Source of the DNA: Sphaerimonospora thailandensis
Lineage (GTDB): Bacteria > Actinomycetota > Actinomycetes > Streptosporangiales > Streptosporangiaceae
Assembly (NCBI RefSeq): GCF_016863115.1
Contig: NZ_BOOG01000041.1
Span: 1 to 64,000 of the forward strand
DNA length: 64,000 nucleotides
Reading direction: 5' to 3'
The translations under genes and the position numbers were made by a program. Below the pieces are notes generated by a model. That model was not told where the DNA came from and searched no databases. It worked only from the letters and a program-made list of their open reading frames with translations. Shown here piece by piece: positions 9,831-45,551 of this stretch. Numbering within the stretch: position 1 is the first letter of the stretch; the number at the start of each line of letters is the position of its first letter.

Positions 9831-9910
9831 AGCCGCACCCGCCGGACAGAACCGTCCGCTGAATGAGCGGCTGAATACACGCCGGAGCTGTCATCCGCAA
9901 TGACGACCTT

Positions 9911-9930
9911 GGGTGTTTCTATAATCACCC
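9911..9930 (+). promoter_or_regulatory. Promoter with perfect -10 box before the sugar transferase
   Basis: TATAAT at 9920-9925 is the sigma-70-type -10 consensus, rare by chance in this GC range, and is enclosed in the short dyad GGGTG...CACCC. No good -35 is obvious. Its place argues that the sugar-transferase coding region starts at the GTG at 9969, not at the upstream ATG at 9900. Confidence 0.5.
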
Positions 9931-9968
9931 TTGGTAGTCGAGTTGCGATCAGCAGCCTGGAGGCACGC

Positions 9969-10694
9969 GTGCTGGACGGTGAGATGCCCCCGGCGAGCAC
10001 CGGCAGTGAGTCGTTCACCGGCGGGCCGCCGCCCTCCATGCGGCCATCCGAGGTTCGACCGGCCGGGGCTTCACCATCCGGGCCGACGCGTGCGCGACGC
10101 CTCGGCAAGGCCTGCTTCGACCGGATGGTCGCCGCCGTCGCGCTGATCTTCCTGGGTCCGGTCATGGTCGCGATCGCCGTGGCCGTACGGCTCACCAGTC
10201 GCGGGCCGGCGCTGGTCGGCCGGCGGCGGATCGGCAGAGACGGCGCGGAGTTCACGCTCCTGAGATTCCGTACGACGCGGCAGGGCGCGCAGGACCGGAG
10301 GGTCGAGCTCCTCGGAGACCTCGTCAGCGACCGGCACGGCCCACTTCTCAAGATCGGGCGGGATCCGAGGGTGACGCCGCTCGGCGTCCGGCTGAGACGG
10401 CGTTCGCTCGACGAGCTCCCCCAACTGATCAACGTGCTGCGCGGTGACATGTCCCTGGTCGGCCCGCGCCCCATGCCGCCGGAGGAGGTCGAGCGGTACG
10501 GTGACCACGCGCGCGGGCGGCTGGTGGTCCGGCCGGGGATGACCGGGCCGTGGCAGGTTGACGGCGGCGCCGACCTGTCGTGGGAGGAATCGGTACGGTT
10601 GGACCTGCGTTATGTCGAGAACTGGTCTGTGATGTTGGATCTGCGGATCCTGTGGAAGACATGGTCCACGGTGGCCCGCCGGGCGGGAGCGTAG
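9969..10694 (+). CDS. Bacterial sugar transferase (undecaprenyl-phosphate type)
   Basis: 241 residues from the GTG at 9969, which has GGAGG five bases upstream; an ATG at 9900 is the alternative. The catalytic domain of the polyisoprenyl-phosphate sugar-1-phosphate transferase family occupies about residues 40-235: one hydrophobic re-entrant helix (VAAVALIFLGPVMVAIAVAV), LTSRGPALVGRRRIGRDG, SLDELPQLINVLRGDMSLVGPRP, then RPGMTGPWQVDG. The usual KFRSM is LRFRTT here. It would place the first sugar phosphate on undecaprenyl phosphate at the membrane. There are no other polysaccharide genes nearby; cysQ starts three bases after it ends. Confidence 0.85.
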   Translation: MLDGEMPPASTGSESFTGGPPPSMRPSEVRPAGASPSGPTRARRLGKACFDRMVAAVALIFLGPVMVAIAVAVRLTSRGPALVGRRRIGRDGAEFTLLRFRTTRQGAQDRRVELLGDLVSDRHGPLLKIGRDPRVTPLGVRLRRRSLDELPQLINVLRGDMSLVGPRPMPPEEVERYGDHARGRLVVRPGMTGPWQVDGGADLSWEESVRLDLRYVENWSVMLDLRILWKTWSTVARRAGA

Positions 10695-10697
10695 CTG

Positions 10698-11486
10698 ATG
10701 ACGATCCGGGACGACCATTCCCTCGCCGGTGACCTGGCCACCGAGGCGGGGGAGCGGCTCCTCGAGCTCCGCGCCCGTCACGGGTTCGAGGATCAGCGGG
10801 CCCTGCGGGACGCCGGCGATCGCGCCGCGCACGTCTTCCTCACCGAGGCCCTGGCGCGTCTGCGGCCCGGCGACGCGGTGCTGTCGGAGGAGGCGACCCG
10901 CGAGGAGCGGGCCGATCCCCGGCGGCTGTCCGCCCGGCGGGTGTGGATCGTCGATCCTCTCGACGGCACCCGCGAGTTCGGCGAGGCCGGCCGGTCCGAC
11001 TGGGCCGTGCACGTCGCCCTGTGGGAGGACGGGAGGCTGGCAGCGGGCGCCGTCGCGCTCCCGGCTCAGGGCCGTACGCTCACGACGGCGAAACCACCCG
11101 TCCTGCCGGAGCCGGCGGGACGGTTCCGCATCGCGGTCAGCCGCAGCCGTCCTGCCGAGTTTCTCCCGGAGCTGGCCGATCAGGTGGGCGCGGAGCTCGT
11201 ACCGATCGGATCCGCCGGAGGCAAGATCGCCGCAGTGCTGAGCGGCGAGGCCGAGGCGTACGTCCACGCCGGCGGGCAGTACGAGTGGGACTCGGCGGCT
11301 CCGGTGGCGGTGGCGCTCGCGGCGGGAGCCCACGCGAGCAGGATCGATGGCGCAACGCTGACCTACAACCGGGCAGACCCGTGGCTCCCGGATATCCTGG
11401 TCTCCCTACCGGATCTGGCGACAACCCTGCTCGCCGGAATCCGTGACCTGCAGTCTCCCCTAAGGAAGCCCAATGCTTCAGCGTGA
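10698..11486 (+). CDS. cysQ: 3'(2'),5'-bisphosphate nucleotidase
   Basis: 262 residues of the inositol-monophosphatase fold. Metal-binding motifs are LSEEAT (the Glu pair), IVDPLDGTREF and, near the C-terminus, YEWDSAAPVAVA. CysQ hydrolyses PAP, the by-product of PAPS-dependent sulfation or reduction, to AMP. Its 3' end overlaps the cysD start by 14 bases, so the two are co-transcribed and probably translationally coupled. That fits removal of PAP where PAPS is consumed. Confidence 0.9.
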   Translation: MTIRDDHSLAGDLATEAGERLLELRARHGFEDQRALRDAGDRAAHVFLTEALARLRPGDAVLSEEATREERADPRRLSARRVWIVDPLDGTREFGEAGRSDWAVHVALWEDGRLAAGAVALPAQGRTLTTAKPPVLPEPAGRFRIAVSRSRPAEFLPELADQVGAELVPIGSAGGKIAAVLSGEAEAYVHAGGQYEWDSAAPVAVALAAGAHASRIDGATLTYNRADPWLPDILVSLPDLATTLLAGIRDLQSPLRKPNASA

Positions 11487-12387
11487 CTACACGACGTCGC
11501 AGCTCGACGTGCTCGAAGCCGAGGCGATCCACATCATGCGTGAGGTCGCGGCGGAGTTCGAACGGCCGTGTCTGCTCTTCTCGGGCGGCAAGGACTCGAT
11601 CGTGATGCTGCGGGTCGCGGAGAAGGCGTTCTGGCCCGCCCCCATTCCGTTCCCCCTCATGCATGTGGACACCGGCCACAACTTCCCCGAAGTGATCGAG
11701 TTCAGGGACCGGCGGGTGGCCGAGCTGGGCGTGCGGCTCGTCGTCGCCTCGGTCCAGGCGTCCATCGACACGGGCCGGGTGGTCGAGCAGACCGGGCGGC
11801 GGGCCTCCCGCAACCGGCTGCAGACCACCACGCTGCTCGACGGGATCGAGGACAACCGGTTCGACGCGGTGTTCGGCGGCGGCAGGCGCGACGAGGAGAA
11901 GGCCCGGGCCAAGGAGCGGGTGTTCTCCTTCCGCGACGAGTTCGGCCAGTGGGACCCCAAGAACCAGCGGCCCGAGCTGTGGAACCTCTACAACACCCGG
12001 ATCCGCACGGGTGAGCACATCAGGGTGTTCCCGCTGTCCAACTGGACCGAGCTGGACGTGTGGCACTACATCCGGCGGGAGGGCGTGGAGATCCCGTCGA
12101 TCTACTACGCGCACACCCGGAAGGTCTTCGAGCGCGACGGCATGCTGCTCGCCGACGCGACCGTGGTCCAGCGGGGCGACGACGAGCCCGTCTTCGAGGC
12201 CATGGTCCGCTATCGCACGGTGGGCGACATGACCTGCACCGGAGCCGTGGAGTCCACCGCCACGACGGTGGACCAGATCATCGACGAGATCGCCGCCACC
12301 CGGATCACCGAGCGCGGCGCCACCCGGGCCGACGACCGGGCCTCCGAGGCCGCGATGGAAGACCGCAAGAAGGAAGGCTACTTCTGA
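11473..12387 (+). CDS. cysD: Sulfate adenylyltransferase subunit 2
   Basis: 304 residues of the PP-loop pyrophosphatase superfamily. LLFSGGKDSIVMLRVAEKAF (about 36-55) is the ATP-binding PP-loop and HVDTGHNFPEVIEFRD follows. GGGRRDEEKARAKERVFSFRD and the end EDRKKEGYF are diagnostic of CysD. With CysN it forms adenylyl sulfate (APS) from ATP and sulfate in the cytosol. It starts inside cysQ after a CTAAGGAAG site. Its stop shares one base with a 32-codon ORF that leads directly into cysN. Confidence 0.97.
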   Translation: MLQRDYTTSQLDVLEAEAIHIMREVAAEFERPCLLFSGGKDSIVMLRVAEKAFWPAPIPFPLMHVDTGHNFPEVIEFRDRRVAELGVRLVVASVQASIDTGRVVEQTGRRASRNRLQTTTLLDGIEDNRFDAVFGGGRRDEEKARAKERVFSFRDEFGQWDPKNQRPELWNLYNTRIRTGEHIRVFPLSNWTELDVWHYIRREGVEIPSIYYAHTRKVFERDGMLLADATVVQRGDDEPVFEAMVRYRTVGDMTCTGAVESTATTVDQIIDEIAATRITERGATRADDRASEAAMEDRKKEGYF

Positions 12388-12485
12388 TGCGCCTTCCCAT
12401 GGCCCGCGGCGCTTTCGCACGCGCGGGTGATCTTCCGGGTGCGAGCCGTACGACCTTCGCCAAAGCTGGAGTAGCGGGAGAGTAA
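12387..12485 (+). CDS. Candidate 32-residue ORF bridging cysD and cysN
   Basis: Reads MRLPMARGAFARAGDLPGA, then SRTTFAKAGVAGE, and stop. Its ATG uses the last base of the cysD stop (TGATG) and its TAA shares a base with the cysN ATG (TAATG), so all three frames are linked head to tail with single-base overlaps. It is basic and resembles nothing I recognise. It could be a real small protein, or merely a way for ribosomes leaving cysD to reach cysN by re-initiation. A GCGGGAGAG site at its end could also serve cysN directly. Confidence 0.4.
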   Translation: MRLPMARGAFARAGDLPGASRTTFAKAGVAGE

Positions 12486-13747
12486 TGGACATCCTTCGTT
12501 TCGCGACGGCGGGAAGTGTCGACGACGGCAAGTCCACGCTGATCGGACGGCTGCTCTTCGACTCCAAGGCGATCTTCGAGGACCAGTTGGAGGCCGTGGA
12601 GCGCACCTCGCGCGACCGCGGCACCGAATACACCGATCTGTCCTTGCTGACCGACGGCCTGCGTGCCGAGCGGGAGCAGGGCATCACGATCGACGTCGCC
12701 TACCGCTACTTCGCCACCCCCAGGCGGAAGTTCATCATCGCCGACACCCCGGGTCATATCCAGTACACCCGGAACATGGTGACCGGCGCCTCGACGGCCG
12801 ACCTGGCGATCATCCTGATCGACGCGCGCAAGGGCGTGCTGGAGCAGTCGCGGCGGCACGCGTTCCTCGCGACGCTGCTGCGGGTGCCGCACCTCGTGCT
12901 CGCGGTGAACAAGATGGACCTGGTCGACTACTCCGAGGAGCGGTTCGAGGAGATCCGTGAGGAGTTCACCGCGTTCGCGTCGAAGCTGAACGCGACGGAC
13001 CTCACGTTCGTTCCGATCTCCGCGCTGCACGGCGACAACGTGGTCGCCCGTTCGGAGAACATGCCGTGGTACGGCGGCTCCTCGCTGCTCCACCACCTGG
13101 AGAACGTGCACATCGCCTCCGACCGCAACCTGGTCGACGTACGGTTCCCGGTGCAGTACGTCATCCGGCCGCACAGCGCCACCAGCCAGGAACTGCACGA
13201 CTACCGCGGGTACGCCGGGCAGGTCGCCGGGGGGGTGCTCAAGGCCGGCGACGAGGTCATGCACCTGCCCTCGGGGCTCACCACCACGATCAAGGCGATC
13301 GACACGTTCGAGGGCCGGGTGGAGGAGGCGTTCTCCCCCATGTCGGTCACGCTCCGGCTGGACGACGACATCGACATCTCGCGCGGCGACATGATCTGCC
13401 GGCCGAACAACCAGCCGAAGGCCGCCCAGGAGATCGAGGCGATGATCTGCTGGATGGCCGACGGCCTCAAGCTGCAGCCCCGGACCAAGCTCGTGATCAA
13501 GCACACCACGCGTACGGCCCGGGCCCTGGTCAGGGACCTGCACTACCGGCTCGACGTCAACACCCTGCACCGGGACGAGACGGCGACCTCGCTCGGCCTC
13601 AACGAGATCGGCCGGGTGTCGCTGCGCACGACCCAGCCGCTTTTCGTGGACGAGTACGCGCGCAACCGCCTCACCGGCGGGTTCATCCTGATCGACGAGG
13701 CCACCAACGGCACGGTCGGCGCCGGAATGATCATCGACTCGCACTGA
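12485..13747 (+). CDS. cysN: Sulfate adenylyltransferase subunit 1 (GTPase)
   Basis: 420 residues of the translation-factor GTPase class. G1 is TAGSVDDGKSTLIGRLLFDSK (about 8-28), G2 REQGITIDVAYRYF, G3 DTPGHIQY and G4 NKMDLVDY. EF-Tu-like beta barrels follow. GTP hydrolysis by CysN drives APS formation by CysD. There is no C-terminal APS-kinase fusion; the kinase is encoded separately at 43291-44547. The start is the ATG overlapping the preceding small ORF, with GGGAGAG just before it. A strong hairpin ends the operon. Confidence 0.97.
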   Translation: MDILRFATAGSVDDGKSTLIGRLLFDSKAIFEDQLEAVERTSRDRGTEYTDLSLLTDGLRAEREQGITIDVAYRYFATPRRKFIIADTPGHIQYTRNMVTGASTADLAIILIDARKGVLEQSRRHAFLATLLRVPHLVLAVNKMDLVDYSEERFEEIREEFTAFASKLNATDLTFVPISALHGDNVVARSENMPWYGGSSLLHHLENVHIASDRNLVDVRFPVQYVIRPHSATSQELHDYRGYAGQVAGGVLKAGDEVMHLPSGLTTTIKAIDTFEGRVEEAFSPMSVTLRLDDDIDISRGDMICRPNNQPKAAQEIEAMICWMADGLKLQPRTKLVIKHTTRTARALVRDLHYRLDVNTLHRDETATSLGLNEIGRVSLRTTQPLFVDEYARNRLTGGFILIDEATNGTVGAGMIIDSH

Positions 13748-13757
13748 GGTTCTCGAA

Positions 13758-13796
13758 GGGGGACGGGCGGGAACGCCGGAGCACCCGCCCACCCCC
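13758..13796 (+). terminator. Hairpin terminator after cysN
   Basis: GGGGGACGGGCGGG pairs with CACCCGCCCACCCCC across a 10-base loop, 10 bases after the cysN stop. The stem is very stable, and the lack of a T-run is usual for this GC range. Confidence 0.75.
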
Positions 13797-13950
13797 ATGT
13801 TCACGTCTCGAATGACAAACCTGAAATTACACGTGCGACGTCTGGGTACGGAGATCCCCAGAGCCGAGTAGATCATCGGAGCATCCCCGATCCGGCGGTA
13901 ACACCCCGCGTTAGGTTCATCGCGTTTCGTATCGATAACGTGGAGGACCA

Positions 13951-15066
13951 GTGGCCGAGGCCGATCCGGTGATCTTCATAGGGGGGCTCGGGCGTAGCGG
14001 CAGCATGCTGCTGGAACGCCTGCTCGGTGAGCTGCCCGGGGTCGCGCCGCTCGGAGAGGTCGCCCACCTGTGGCGGCACGGCGTACAGGCGGGCGAACCC
14101 TGTGGTTGCGGGCAGCCGTTCGAGCATTGCCCGTTCTGGCGGAAGGTGGGCGCCCGAGGCTTCGGCCAGTGGCGGGAGAGCCAGATCGGATGGCTGAGGC
14201 GGCTGTGTGTGCGGGTCGACCGTACCCGCCGCATCCCGGCGTACGCCCTCGGGTTCGTGTCGCGAGAGGCGGAGTTGGTCGAGTACGTCCGCTCGTACAC
14301 CCGGATCTACGCCGCGGCCGCCGAGATCGCCGACGCCCACACCGTCGTGGACTCGAGCAGGCACGCCTCCCTGGCGTACTGTCTATCCGCGATCATGGAT
14401 CTGCGGATCGTCCATCTGGTGCGCGACCCGCGGGCGGTGGCTGCTTCCAGGCGCGGAAAGGCGCGGCACAGGAAGCCGCGCCTGCCGGAGGACGGTCGGC
14501 CGACGACCCGGCCGGAGGCCCGGTGGACGCCGGTCAGGACGGCCGTCGACTGGTTCGTGCAGAACCTCGCCTTCGAGTTCCTCCGGGGCAAGGGCGTGGA
14601 CGTCGTCCGCGTCCGCTACGAGGACCTGCTGGCCCGGCCGGCGGAGACGCTGGACGCGTTGACCACCCGGCTCGGCCTGCCGCACGCGACGGAGTCCTTC
14701 GCGTTCCTCGGCGATCGGCAGGCGCGGATCGGCGTCGCGCACACCGTCGCAGGCAATCCGCTGCGGTTCGGCGTCGGCCGGATCGGGTTCCGTGACCGTC
14801 CGGTGAAGCTGCCGGCCACCCACCGGTGGCTGGTCACCGCGCTGACGTGGCCGTTGCTCCTCCTGTACGGCTACCGCCTCGGCGGCCTGACGCCACGGCG
14901 ACGGGCGACCGCGTCGCGGGTCCGACGGCCGCATATCATCGACGGCGCATCGTCCTCCGAGCCTGCGAGAGTCCATGTTCCGCACACTGATGAAGTCGAA
15001 GATCCACCGTGCCACCGTCACCCAGGCCGACCTGCACTACGTCGGATCAGTCACCATCAGCGCTGA
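13951..15066 (+). CDS. PAPS-dependent sulfotransferase family protein
   Basis: 371 residues starting at GTG after [29 protein letters not shown] (about 7-26) is the 5'-phosphosulfate-binding loop. [21 protein letters not shown] (about 149-169) matches the 3'-phosphate-binding RDPR motif, and [17 protein letters not shown] is also typical. The cluster [13 protein letters not shown] near 50 is common in actinobacterial members. It transfers sulfate from PAPS to an unknown small molecule or glycolipid. Its position right after cysQDN links it to sulfate activation. The last 30 codons run through the start of panD, an unusually long 92-base overlap. Confidence 0.85.
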
Positions 15067-15397
15067 CCTCATGGCCGCGGCCGATCTCGTGGCGGGCGAG
15101 AAGGTCGACATCGTCGACATAGACAACGGCAACCGCCTGTCGACGTACGTCATCGAGGGTCCGGCGGGTTCCGGGGTGATCGGGATCAACGGCGCCGCGG
15201 CCCGGCTCGTCGGCGTGGGCGACCTCGTGATCATCATCGCGTACGCGCTGGTGGCCGAGGAGGAGCTGGGCTCCCTCAAGCCGAGCGTGGTCTTCGTCGA
15301 CCGGGACAACAAGATCGTCCAAGTCGGCGCCGACCCCGCCGACGCCCCCGACGGAACCGGCCTGACCCGCGGCGACACAGTCAACCCCACCGGTTGA
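14975..15397 (+). CDS. panD: Aspartate 1-decarboxylase
   Basis: 140 residues opening [28 protein letters not shown], the classical PanD sequence. The GS at 25-26 is the self-cleavage site that generates the catalytic pyruvoyl group. LSTYVIEG and the [22 protein letters not shown] core follow. It makes beta-alanine from aspartate for pantothenate and CoA synthesis. No other pan genes are nearby. The start lies inside the sulfotransferase gene in another frame, with GCGAGAG upstream; an ATG at 14990 is possible but would remove conserved residues. Confidence 0.95.
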
Positions 15398-37186: not shown

Positions 37187-38005
37187 TCAGAGTAGCGACT
37201 CCAGGTGATCCACCACGGGGTTGAGCCACTCACTCGGCGGGCCGAGCGGTTCGTGGCCGTCGCGGCGGTGCCGGTCGGCCAAAGTGATCAGGTAGTGGGC
37301 GGCGACTCCGCGAGCGTCCGCCGTCGAGGTCCCGATGATGCGGCCGGACCGCGCCAGACAGGCCGCGGCGGCCTCCCGCGGCCGCATCCGGCGCAGGCAG
37401 CGGTGGAAGAAGTAGTGCAGGGCGTCGAATCCGTACGGCACGCCGGTGGCGAACCGTTCCCAGTTCCAGACCAGCAGCCGACCGTCGGCCGCGGCCGCCA
37501 CGTTCCACGGCGTGAAATCACCATGCCAGGCGCAGCCGTCATCGGAGCCGAGGGTGGCGATCTCCGCCACGGCCGCCTCGAGCAGGTCCGCCGGCACCCG
37601 GGACCTGACGGAGAAGCGGGACGGGACGGGCAGGGGGGACAGCAGCAACACGTCGAGATCACCCGACGCGCCGTGATGCAGCACGGTCGGTGGCACCACG
37701 GTCTTCAGCGGCCGGTCGGCGAGCATCCGGAGGACTTCGCTCTCGTGCCTGACCGCCTCGCGGGCTTGCTCCGTGCCACCGATCTTCACGATGCCGGCCA
37801 GACCGGCAGGGCCGTACGCCTCCAGGGCGGACTCGGCGTGAGACCGGCGGGCCGGCGGCCGTACGACGATCCGGATCGGCTGGCCGAGGGCTTCACTGAG
37901 GTGGGACTCGATGGCACGTGGGCCGTCGGCCGCCGCCAGGCCGAGCGCGTGATGCCGCCAGACGTGTGAGACCAATCGCCACGGGGCGAGCCGGTGAGAC
38001 AGCAC
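37187..38005 (-). CDS. Aminoglycoside-phosphotransferase-fold kinase-like protein
   Basis: 272 residues from a GTG with a very good GGAGGAGG site. The C-lobe contains CAWHGDFTPWNVAAAADGRLL, where HGD..N is the catalytic motif of APH/choline-kinase enzymes. The metal-binding DWE position reads LVWNWERF, so the usual Asp is Asn. The N-lobe (GIVKIGGTEQAREAVRHESEVL) has the Lys and Glu pair. The substrate is unknown. The 5' end overlaps the preceding small membrane-protein gene by 113 bases, and the response regulator converges on it with a two-base gap. Confidence 0.75.
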   Translation of the reverse strand: MLSHRLAPWRLVSHVWRHHALGLAAADGPRAIESHLSEALGQPIRIVVRPPARRSHAESALEAYGPAGLAGIVKIGGTEQAREAVRHESEVLRMLADRPLKTVVPPTVLHHGASGDLDVLLLSPLPVPSRFSVRSRVPADLLEAAVAEIATLGSDDGCAWHGDFTPWNVAAAADGRLLVWNWERFATGVPYGFDALHYFFHRCLRRMRPREAAAACLARSGRIIGTSTADARGVAAHYLITLADRHRRDGHEPLGPPSEWLNPVVDHLESLL

Positions 38006-38396
38006 GCGAAGGACCTCCTCCAGTTGACGTGATCTCCGGTGTGAATTCCAGCGGTTTGTCCGGCGGCATGCTGTCGTGTTTTCGCAATTCTTCGGAATCG
38101 CGATTTATCGACATGTCGGTGGCGATGCCGTTGATGTTGGTGGAATGCGCGATCTGCGATTTTCTGTCGAGATTGAGAGGTTCGTGCTGTCGGAAACTCG
38201 GTGGATTGTCCTGGTCTGGAATGCTCGTCGGAAGCACCCGGAGTTGGGGGACAAGGGGGTGTTCGGGTGGGGTCACGGCGAGCAGTACCAGACCGCCGGC
38301 CACCCCTCCGACCAGCCAGATAGCGAGCAGCGGCCACCGCCGGTGCGGCGGCGGGCCGTGGTCGGCGAGCCCCCGGCCGTCCGGTGGCAGACTCAT
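37893..38396 (-). CDS. Putative small membrane-anchored protein
   Basis: 167 residues from the ATG at 38396, which has AGGAG six bases upstream. A short cytoplasmic segment leads to one span (WPLLAIWLVGGVAGGLVLLAV) and then a polar tail (LVPQLRVLPTSIPDQDNPP onward) with no recognised domain. The coding region between about 38040 and 38200 is clearly lower in GC than its surroundings. The final 37 codons lie inside the kinase-like gene in another frame, so the true end or even the gene itself is uncertain. It resembles the short accessory membrane proteins found near polysaccharide genes. Confidence 0.5.
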   Translation of the reverse strand: MSLPPDGRGLADHGPPPHRRWPLLAIWLVGGVAGGLVLLAVTPPEHPLVPQLRVLPTSIPDQDNPPSFRQHEPLNLDRKSQIAHSTNINGIATDMSINRDSEELRKHDSMPPDKPLEFTPEITSTGGGPSRAVSPARPVAIGLTRLAASRARPGGGRRPTCHRVPPQ

Positions 38397-38581
38397 GAAC
38401 ATCTCCTACTCGGTTCCGTGTCCCGAACTATAGGGCGAGACGGTCTTTTGCCTGCCGGTTATTCATGATTTTCTGCCAACTTTTCCTCGGCGAGATAACG
38501 GAAACCGGTCCCGGGACTTCACCGGTTGGGCAATGGTGAATCCTGACCAATCGCAGGGGGCTGCGGAGAAGAGGGGACACG

Positions 38582-43290: not shown

Positions 43291-44547
43291 TCAGCGGATC
43301 CAGCCGCCGGAGGTGAGGGTGCCGAGCACGGTGCTCACGGCGTGCTCGACGCTCATGCCGGTGGTGTCGATGACGAGGTCGGCGTCGTCGGGCTCCTCGT
43401 ACGGGTCGCTGATCCCGGTGAACTCCGGGATCAGCCCGGCCCGGGCCTTGGCGTACAGGCCCTTCCGGTCGCGGCGCTCGCACTCCTCCAGCGGGGTGGC
43501 CACGTGGACGAGCAGGAAGTCGGCGCCCACCTCCTCGGCCATGGCGCGGACCTCCTGCCTGGTCGCGGCGTACGGGGCGATCGGGGCGCAGACGGCCAGG
43601 CCGCCGTGCCGCGCGACCTCGGCCGCCACGAAGCCGATCCGCCGGATGTTGCGGTCGCGGTCCTCGCGGGAGAACGTCAGCCCGGCCGACAGCATCCGCC
43701 GGACCACGTCGCCGTCCAGGTAGGTGACGGTCCGCCCGCCGCGCTCCAGCAGCACGTCGCGCAGGCCCCTGGCGATGGTCGACTTGCCCGAGCCGGACAG
43801 TCCGGTGAAGAACACCACGAGCCCGCGGCGGTGCGGCGGGCCGGGGATCGCGACCGGCGCCGGCCCCGCGTAGTGCTCGGTCGCGCCGTAGTTGCGCGCC
43901 ACGTGCTCGCGCAGCTCCAGGTCGATCTCGGCGTCCTCGCGCGGCGCGAGCGGTACGGCGACCACCGTCGAGCCGGGCAGCCGCTCGGCCGCCTTGAGCG
44001 CGGCGCGCACCACCGCCGGGCCGCCCTCACCGAAGACGAGGGGCAGCAACACGATCGCGGCTTCCAGCTCCTCGGCGGTGGCCGCCACGTCCTCCAGCGC
44101 CGTGCCGTCCAGCGGCCCGCGCATGGTCACCGCCAGGATCTCCCCCTCGGGCAGTTCCTTGCGGACCTCCTCGGGGGTACGGCGCAGCCGGGCGAACGGG
44201 CCGTACGCCGGCGTGTCCAGCGCCTCCACCGGACCTGCCACGTGATATCCGTGCCCGTGCCCGTCCCCGTCTCCGGACAGTTCCCGGACGGTCAGTACGG
44301 CCACCGCGGCGCCCTCGGGGTCCCGTAGCGTGATCCGGTCGCCGAGCCGGATGGCTTCGGGCTGGATCTCCCGCGGGAGGGCGAGCGCGATGGGATCGGG
44401 CCAGGCGCCGCCGTCGGGCAACTGGCCGTGCTCGGTGACCTCGGACGCCTCGGCGGCGGTAAGAAACCCCGTCAGCGGAGCGAAGGCGCCGGAGAGCAGC
44501 AGCTCCAGGTCGGCCAGCTCCCGGGCGTCGGGAATCCACTCAATCAT
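43291..44547 (-). CDS. cysC: APS kinase fused to a degenerate ATP-sulfurylase domain
   Basis: 418 residues from the ATG at 44547 (MIEWIPDARELADLELLLSG), after CCAGGAAG. The first 235 or so residues resemble the PUA-like and catalytic parts of Sat-type ATP sulfurylase (GAFAPLTGFLTAAE, GDRITLRDPEG, VARNYGATEHYAGP). The catalytic QxRNP and GRDHAG motifs are missing. The C-terminal APS kinase is intact: FFTGLSGSGKSTIARGL (P-loop), YLDGDVVRRMLSAGLTFSRE, then GLYAKARAGLIPEFTGI. It should phosphorylate APS made by CysDN to PAPS. It lies 71 bases after a methyltransferase gene. Confidence 0.9.
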   Translation of the reverse strand: MIEWIPDARELADLELLLSGAFAPLTGFLTAAEASEVTEHGQLPDGGAWPDPIALALPREIQPEAIRLGDRITLRDPEGAAVAVLTVRELSGDGDGHGHGYHVAGPVEALDTPAYGPFARLRRTPEEVRKELPEGEILAVTMRGPLDGTALEDVAATAEELEAAIVLLPLVFGEGGPAVVRAALKAAERLPGSTVVAVPLAPREDAEIDLELREHVARNYGATEHYAGPAPVAIPGPPHRRGLVVFFTGLSGSGKSTIARGLRDVLLERGGRTVTYLDGDVVRRMLSAGLTFSREDRDRNIRRIGFVAAEVARHGGLAVCAPIAPYAATRQEVRAMAEEVGADFLLVHVATPLEECERRDRKGLYAKARAGLIPEFTGISDPYEEPDDADLVIDTTGMSVEHAVSTVLGTLTSGGWIR

Positions 44548-44618
44548 GCTGTTCTTCCTGGCCGCGTCGTTCCGGTAGATAGATTGGTAACGCACTTTAC
44601 CTGGAACGAGGTCAGCGG

Positions 44619-45377
44619 CTAGATGAGCCGGGCGAAGTGGTTCTGGGGGCGGCGGATCACCATGGTGATCTCGTCCTCGGTCCCGTTGAGCCGGCCGCGC
44701 GACAACGCGGCCACCGCCCGGCAGACCGCGCCGACCAGCCCGGGGTGCGGCCCCTGCCGCGCCGGGCCGCTCACCGCCGAGTAATCCTCTGCGATCATGA
44801 GTCCCCGGGTCAGGCAGAACGCCTGCACGCCCTCGCGCGATGTCAGCGGCTCGTACACCGCCGGGAGCGGCCCCACGGATTCGGCCGGGGACAGCCCGCG
44901 CCACAGCATCCGCCGCAGCCATCGCGGGGCGGCACGGTCACACAGCCGGGCGCAGAAGCCGTACGCCGACCGCCGGTCCCGCATCTTGAGCAGCAGCAGG
45001 CCGCCGGGCCGCAGTGCGGCGACCAGCCGGTCGAGGACCACCTCCGCGTTGCGGACGCGCTCCAGCAGGAAGGACACGTAGACCACGTCGAACGTGCGGG
45101 GCCGGAGCGGCACCAGGCGCAGGTCGCCCAGGTGCACCTCGTCCAGGTCCTTGCGATCGACGGCATGGGCCCGCAGCGGGGGCAGATCCTCGTCCACCCC
45201 GCAGATCCGGGGCTCGTGCCGCCCGACGTCCAGGACGCCGTCCCGGCCGCATCCCGCGATGAGGATGTCGAGCCGCCGGCCCAGCTGGTCGGTCCACTGC
45301 TCGCGGATCCGCTGGCTGAACACGTCGTCCTGATCCACGAACGGGTCCACGGACGACCATCGAACCTGAGAAGACAT
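44619..45377 (-). CDS. Class I SAM-dependent methyltransferase
   Basis: 252 residues from the ATG at 45377 (MSSQVRWSSVDPF); a slightly longer start at 45395 is possible. LDILIAGCGRDGVLDV is the SAM loop, ICGVDEDLPPL motif II, FDVVYVSFLLERV motif IV and LRPGGLLLLKM motif V. The C-terminal part (LPAVYEPLTSREGVQAFC) resembles methyltransferases of surface-sugar or small-molecule pathways. It precedes cysC on the same strand by 71 bases, hinting at a shared sulfation-related pathway, which is inference. No substrate can be named. Confidence 0.82.
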   Translation of the reverse strand: MSSQVRWSSVDPFVDQDDVFSQRIREQWTDQLGRRLDILIAGCGRDGVLDVGRHEPRICGVDEDLPPLRAHAVDRKDLDEVHLGDLRLVPLRPRTFDVVYVSFLLERVRNAEVVLDRLVAALRPGGLLLLKMRDRRSAYGFCARLCDRAAPRWLRRMLWRGLSPAESVGPLPAVYEPLTSREGVQAFCLTRGLMIAEDYSAVSGPARQGPHPGLVGAVCRAVAALSRGRLNGTEDEITMVIRRPQNHFARLI

Positions 45378-45551
45378 GACACCGAGAGTAATCATGCTTG
45401 TACGATCAGCGGTGGATTCGCCTCGTCAAGATTTGGACGGCACGCGCGGGCGGTGCCCGTACAGGCGTAGCCTGGATAACCTGATAATCCCCCGGTCCGA
45501 TCTCGGCTCGGGGTTGTTTCGCTTGCCGTCGTGGGGCTGCAGAAGGCATAG

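Follow-up and report, generated by a model that had tools for sequence, protein, structure and literature searches.

The APS kinase Tbd_0210 of Thiobacillus denitrificans (PDB 3CR8), said to have been described by Gay in 2009, reportedly joins an N-terminal ATP-sulfurylase (Sat)-like domain without Sat activity to an active C-terminal kinase. According to PMC13213808, this enzyme is a hexamer with tight contacts, for which a stabilising role of the Sat-like half is proposed. The same paper describes EhAPSK of Entamoeba histolytica, a dimer whose dead domain activates the kinase across protomers: deleting that domain or introducing E90A or Y133A cuts kcat ~20- to 130-fold, with a loss of ~50- to 60-fold for E90A. 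The authors call kcat/KM largely unchanged; in their table it rises up to ~fourfold in the point mutants and falls in the deletion, a construct that, they warn, aggregates. Of the E90–Y133 pair, the Thiobacillus enzyme is stated there to have the glutamate and not the tyrosine. Penicillium ATP sulfurylase (1I2D) likewise consists of two halves, one of them dead and kept, but is the mirror image, in that the kinase-like half is dead and serves as a PAPS-binding regulator (PMC3734648). The sections consulted of PMC13213808, PMC6715247, PMC4373884 and PMC3734648 name two APS kinases in which the Sat half is dead.

The window, by which we mean the whole 64,000-nucleotide stretch of DNA from the soil actinomycete Sphaerimonospora thailandensis that was analysed, carries at 43291–44547 on the minus strand a gene in which an apparently dead Sat half is fused to an APS kinase. 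The reading frame, whose strand the original prediction left unnamed, runs from an ATG at 44547 to a stop at 43291–43293 and encodes 418 residues, of which 1–235 resemble the Sat core without its catalytic motifs and 241–418 make up an intact APS kinase. PUA_2, the N-terminal part of Sat, was matched by Pfam at residues 7–89 (44281–44529, minus strand; 62.5 bits, cut-off 27), and the Sat catalytic family PF01747 had no Pfam match in the protein. Alignment placed TMRGPL at the former QTRNPM site (residues 141–146; 44110–44127) and YAGPAPV at the former IVGRDHA stretch (residues 226–232; 43852–43872), both on the minus strand. The kinase domain (residues 241–394; 43366–43827, minus strand; Pfam and motifs) retains its P-loop GLSGSGKST, DGDVVR and lid; the fusion exceeded the cut-offs of the APS kinase families PF01583 (191.9 bits versus 21.1) and TIGR00455 (180.7 versus 138.7), and scored 366.3 against the bifunctional Sat/APS kinase equivalog NF004040, below its cut-off of 669. 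These results bear out the original prediction of a Sat-like N-terminal stretch of 235 residues lacking QxRNP and GRDHAG, followed by a complete APS kinase. Chance, sequencing error and a frameshift or assembly artefact were rejected, given that each of the 80 named loci retained as the best of 357 relatives had the same short form and that the fusion matches of 61 family genomes had no internal stops. Also rejected was a separate working Sat elsewhere in the S. thailandensis genome, where a genome-wide search with PF01747 found no match.

Over aligned residues 138–150, the active actinobacterial Sat–APS kinase fusions (n = 14) read VAFQTRNPMHRAH, as compared to LAVTMRGPLDGTA in the window protein, and over residues 218–230 an example of an active fusion reads KNHGCTHLIVGRD, as compared to RNYGATEHYAGPA; an example of a long dead form reads LAVATREPLHRKQ at the motif site. 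The active fusions thus carry QTRNPMHRAH and GRDHA, the latter site being YAGPA in the window protein. QxRNP, P(M/L)HxxH and GRDHA were each found in 14/14 active fusions and in 0/105 short forms (88 distinct sequences, 17 of the 105 being duplicated), with counts of 0/26, 1/26 and 0/26, respectively, in long dead forms. The latter comprised 25 of the 36 long-form family genomes plus L148, and the remaining 11 long-form genomes were assessed by PF01747 score alone. Sat motifs in an altered yet plausible form were also looked for, and the alignment shows none. The P-loop, DGDxVR and lid, which we take as the APS kinase motifs, were found in all 105 short and all 26 long forms.

The N half has also shrunk, a point beyond the original prediction. 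Its median length is 358 residues in active fusions, 314 in long dead forms and 223 in short forms (active fusions having ~135 residues more than short ones), and the median distance from the former GRDHAG site to the kinase is 103, 84 and 12 residues, respectively, indicating that in the short form, the window protein included, most of the C-terminal region of Sat has gone as well. Besides its mutations, the Sat half of the window protein shows a shortening of about 70–90 residues relative to the long and active forms (72–91 by medians). Because all three motifs and the C-terminal Sat subdomain are gone, we infer that the N half is without ATP-sulfurylase activity. As read from the alignments, the relatives show a series from an active Sat–APS kinase through a dead but nearly full-sized half to the short form. 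The earlier proposal that the Sat half is dispensable as an enzyme is supported, with the Sat motifs gone and a CysDN encoded that can cover the Sat reaction, whereas its description as 'decayed' understates a half that has fixed new sequence and a core fold predicted to be intact.

Structure prediction, proposed at the outset as a check, gave the N half a Sat fold. An AlphaFold2 model of the window protein, built with 65 relatives as a single chain, had a mean pLDDT of 87.2, and values for ten-residue blocks of the N half lay between 83 and 97 except at residues 91–100 (60), 111–120 (62) and 231–240 (49). By VIA-align, model residues 1–235 matched truncated yeast Sat 1r6x (Z 22.9, rmsd 2.8, 234 residues aligned), with the alignment stopping at chain residue 298, and the N half is thus predicted to fold as the Sat core. 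Foldseek returned 3CR8 as the best match of the model (E 7e-33, TM 0.53, rmsd 12.7), and VIA-align ranked it second, tied with 2GKS (Z 26.6 and 26.8). The high rmsd to 3CR8 is probably due to a differing placement of the two halves; the single-chain model, at a pTM of 0.57, carries no information on their arrangement.

A sequence search of the PDB likewise placed 3CR8 first, at 333 bits (236.8 for the kinase part and 98.2 for the N half), followed by 2GKS, 1I2D, 1M8P and 23VK. The Thiobacillus enzyme shares the order of an N-terminal Sat-like domain and a C-terminal kinase, but has 97 residues between the aligned parts compared to ~6 in the window protein, retains QARQP and PMHRAQ, and in the trees lies apart from the clade that contains the window protein (100/100). 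EhAPSK (23VK, 23VL) resembles the window protein in its dead Sat-like domain, active kinase and shortened linker, but according to PMC13213808 it acts in mitosomes and its Sat-like domain is 293 residues long. Its E90 corresponds to E78 of the window protein, a residue invariant in 88/88 distinct short forms, but its Tyr133 is replaced by Gly116, so that the Entamoeba contact is not shown for the window protein by this alignment. We dropped E78 as a special mark of the dead half, since 13/14 active fusions have it too. The bifunctional Sat/APS kinases (NF004040, Aquifex 2GKS, L149–L162) have the same domain order as the window protein; L149–L162 differ in their active motifs (14/14) and in their longer N half. 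With a Sat fold at the N terminus, Sat motifs lost and kinase motifs kept, the window protein fits the Thiobacillus/Entamoeba type as judged from sequence and model. No description of the actinobacterial short form was found in the open-licence literature, among the matches listed.

The fusion was present in 61/61 genomes of the family sample, 25 with the short and 36 with the long form by our reading of the match table, and in none of the 61 did the fusion gene lack the Sat half. In 59/61, the fusions were the only APS kinase matches at E up to 1e-20, the exceptions being G016 and G029, and a few further family genomes had weaker APS kinase matches outside the fusion. The N half was matched in 99/296 genomes of the phylum sample, many of these matches probably being ordinary Sat as judged from open-frame length; the same sample supplied the active actinobacterial relatives L149–L162. 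The kinase tree and the N-half tree each set the dead forms used apart from 3CR8 and the 14 active fusions (100/100 in both), and the short forms made one group (support of 97/91 and 99/98, respectively), with an S. thailandensis paralogue (L002) inside it. The kinase tree placed this group within the long forms (82/80), and the N-half tree left the order of the dead groups without resolution. Long branches were those of Aa2GKS, Eh23VK, L149, L148 and L002, and Aa2GKS and Eh23VK met in the kinase tree. In a smaller kinase tree, from which Aa2GKS, Eh23VK and L002 were removed and in which 9 of the 20 short rows were used, L177 and L179 joined the dead clade (99/97) and support for the short group was only 91/74. 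Given this position of L177 and L179, two independent deaths of Sat are not claimed.

Several further occurrences were observed. L177, L179, L185, L186 and L187 are dead, shortened Sat–APS kinase fusions in another order of Actinomycetota, and by eye L179 and L185 lie near sulfite-reductase-like ORFs. A plasmid search matched 499 records; among the 20 listed, one Nonomuraea record (11.8 Mb) had the short form (71%), and the other 19 were bifunctional enzymes, kinases or partial matches. A short fusion from a metagenome assembly (L104:1729–3618) carries an additional domain of the low-molecular-weight tyrosine phosphatase family (PF01451, 71 bits), members of which often accompany exopolysaccharide genes. 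The S. thailandensis paralogue (L002:1498–2709, minus strand, contig C4) is another APS kinase with a dead Sat half, here eroded further; it shares 54% identity with the window protein over residues 36–418 and had no PUA_2 match at E up to 0.01. Its contig (L002, L006, L007) also holds, by eye, arylsulfatase-, dehydrogenase- and monooxygenase-like ORFs, together with CysQ-like, CysN and CysD genes and three PF13469 sulfotransferases, and is perhaps a sulfation/desulfation catabolic region.

Constraint on the dead half was measured by the ratio of non-synonymous to synonymous divergence (dN/dS; Nei–Gojobori, own script), a method that suits GC-rich genes poorly. The closest named relative, Sphaerimonospora mesophila (L067; protein 92% identical to the window's and identical to that of G030, listed in the window's genus), gave dN/dS values of 0.28 for the N half and 0.16 for the kinase. 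Over 2893 of 3160 non-independent pairs, omitting L104 and 267 pairs outside the dS range of 0.1–0.8, the medians were 0.39 and 0.22, respectively, with an N-half maximum of 0.69; the N half therefore evolves faster than the kinase. Invariant positions in 66 aligned short forms numbered 34/94 in the Sat core, 26/85 in the PUA part and 91/173 in the kinase. At the former active site, T141, R143, G144 and H225 were identical in 88/88 distinct short forms and E224 in 87/88, so that a TxRG stretch is fixed there throughout. Among long dead forms, R143 was kept in 13/26 and T141 in 1/26, which assigns the fixed stretch to the short clade. These patterns indicate that the dead half is under purifying selection and not in random decay, and conservation and dN/dS make it likely that, as originally supposed, the half is kept for a function. 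Folding by itself might account for such constraint, if a misfolded half would spoil the kinase.

Between pth and mfd, the window holds CysDN, a sulfotransferase and the fusion. One block (9900–15066, all plus strand) comprises, in order, a bacterial sugar transferase (9900–10694; PF02397), a CysQ-like phosphatase of the inositol monophosphatase family (10698–11486; 105.8 bits, below the TIGR01331 cut-off of 228.8), the ATP sulfurylase subunit CysD (11473–12387; 451 bits versus 396.6), the GTPase subunit CysN (12485–13747; TIGR02034, 579 bits versus 336) and a sulfotransferase (13951–15066; PF13469, 58 bits). The original claim that CysDN is encoded in the region thus holds, CysD and CysN both exceeding their NCBIfam cut-offs. 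The 420-residue CysN has no fused kinase and is not of the CysNC type, in which the kinase is fused to CysN. A second block (43291–45395), adjoining mfd, consists of the fusion and, upstream on the same strand, a SAM methyltransferase-like gene (44619–45395, minus strand). The methyltransferase and mfd were within ~5 kb of the fusion in 79/80 named loci, some with intervening ORFs; the exception (L075) is a sequence that starts 1.9 kb before the gene. The other flank of the fusion carries, in L102, Wzz, a TauE-family exporter, a GH26 match at the borderline, a flippase-like protein, a Wzy_C match below cut-off, and sulfotransferases, one over and one below cut-off; L118 adds WecG to genes of this type, and L078 has, on the same side, a sulfotransferase, CysN, CysD, CysQ and a sugar transferase. 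This gene content points to a sulfated exopolysaccharide.

The ~28 kb at window positions 15100–43200 include, by eye, ectoine-like and ABC transporter genes among others, none of which occur in a compact locus in a relative (L182), and the relatives' exopolysaccharide genes seem largely missing from this interval. One ORF there (37893–38402, minus strand) starts like the relatives' Wzz genes and had no Pfam match. Pfam also matched nothing in another ORF (37187–38005, minus strand), for which counterparts were recognised by eye among the exopolysaccharide genes of L068, L078, L102 and L118; the L102 counterpart likewise had no Pfam match. The CysH of S. thailandensis passed the APS reductase model by 0.1 bit (235.4 versus 235.3), passed the broader PAPS reductase models NF002537 and TIGR00434, and failed TIGR02057. 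It has the CC and CxxC pairs, a motif suggesting that it uses APS as its substrate; if so, PAPS would be unnecessary for cysteine.

The explanation that we favour, and hold to be reasonably probable, is that the window protein, descended from a bifunctional ATP-sulfurylase/APS-kinase, is now a monofunctional APS kinase, with the dead half kept to assemble or activate the kinase, for which the Thiobacillus and Entamoeba enzymes are the best precedents. In this reading CysDN took over the Sat activity, a plausible cause of the death of Sat. CysD–CysN, whose families are evident from the matches, would make APS from sulfate and ATP, and the C-terminal kinase of the fusion, whose motifs are intact, would convert APS to PAPS. 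Judging from gene content, PAPS may be used by the sulfotransferases coded nearby, probably on exopolysaccharide, and PAP may be removed by the CysQ-like phosphatase. By analogy with Entamoeba, the N half would remain folded and, as a partner domain, keep the kinase in a working oligomer and/or raise its turnover through contacts across the dimer. That the half is kept in every sampled family genome despite CysDN suggests that it still helps the kinase. The linkage of CysD and the fusion on one contig in 44/61 family genomes and the compact locus of L182, both described below, also favour this explanation, as do the constraint on the N half and the invariance of E78. Pointing against it are the presence of E78 in active fusions as well, the Gly116 in place of Tyr133, the chance that constraint stems from folding alone, the more eroded L002 half, the faster evolution of the N half, and the location of CysD and the fusion on separate contigs in 17/61 family genomes.

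The distribution of CysD also bears on a different reading, close to the docking option of the original proposal, namely that the dead Sat half binds CysD/CysN and passes APS to the kinase, replacing the covalent CysN–CysC fusion of other actinomycetes. CysD exceeded its cut-off in 62/62 dead-fusion genomes (the 61 family genomes and G252), compared to 1/14 active-fusion genomes, although these counts follow phylogeny and the 62 genomes are not independent events. PF01747 scored 268–314 bits in the 14 active-fusion genomes; of the 62 dead-fusion genomes, 37 had no match, and 25 had a weak one that lay at the fusion gene and reached at most 54 bits. Docking of CysDN would agree with the co-occurrence of CysD and the dead fusion, with the lack of a fused kinase in the window CysN, and with two arrangements in relatives: in L182, pth, CysQ-like, CysD, CysN, TauE, fusion, methyltransferase and mfd share one compact locus (pth, methyltransferase and mfd by eye), and in L187, from the other actinobacterial order, the fusion, CysD and a CysN-like ORF (by eye) are consecutive on one strand. 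APS channelling is also known in some bacterial N-sulfurylase/C-kinase fusions, according to PMC3734648. However, co-occurrence and linkage indicate a shared pathway and not contact. CysD and the fusion shared a contig in 44/61 family genomes, 2.4–34.4 kb apart (median 16 kb) and at 10–30 kb in 34 of the 44. Moreover, G016 has CysNC as well, and G132, the single active-fusion genome with CysD, which also carries a dead fusion of the L177 kind, has, next to CysD, a gene of CysNC size that matches the kinase. We thus consider docking unlikely, and quite unlikely in the specific form in which the half was re-used as a non-covalent CysDN docking module with the TxRG/EH residues in a new interface. 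If that form were true, the old enzyme would now serve as the adaptor for what replaced it.

The fixed residues could instead mean that APS, PAPS or sulfate still binds in the former Sat pocket and that the kinase is regulated in this way, as in the first option of the original proposal. Arg143, at the position of the Sat arginine of QxRNP, is kept together with T141 and G144 in all distinct short forms, and in the mirror arrangement of fungal Sat, PAPS regulates through the dead partner domain (PMC3734648). Set against this are the disappearance of the three catalytic motifs and of most of the stretch between Sat core and kinase, the patchy retention of Arg143 among long dead forms, and the report, in PMC13213808, that the Entamoeba dead domain has lost substrate binding; a sensing role seems to us decidedly improbable. 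Very doubtful, too, is the view that the half is functionless and survives simply through the need to fold without disturbing the kinase to which it is fused. The progressive erosion from active to long to short N halves, carried further in L002, and the higher N-half dN/dS are what such a fossil would be expected to leave, but the half is missing from the gene in none of the sampled family genomes, and the residues fixed in the short form (TxRG, H225) differ from those of long and active forms, so that their origin is probably later than the loss of the enzyme's activity.

Regardless of how the dead half would act, whether by assembling or activating the kinase, as we favour, or otherwise, the dead-Sat arrangement occurs here in every sampled genome of a whole bacterial family. 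The steps away from the active enzyme, namely death, deletion of a subdomain and the appearance of new conserved residues, are visible among the relatives, with takeover by CysDN as a plausible cause. Domain order alone makes such genes resemble a bifunctional sulfate adenylyltransferase/adenylylsulfate kinase, which calls for caution in annotation. The relatives offer a natural series for testing the use of a dead enzyme half.
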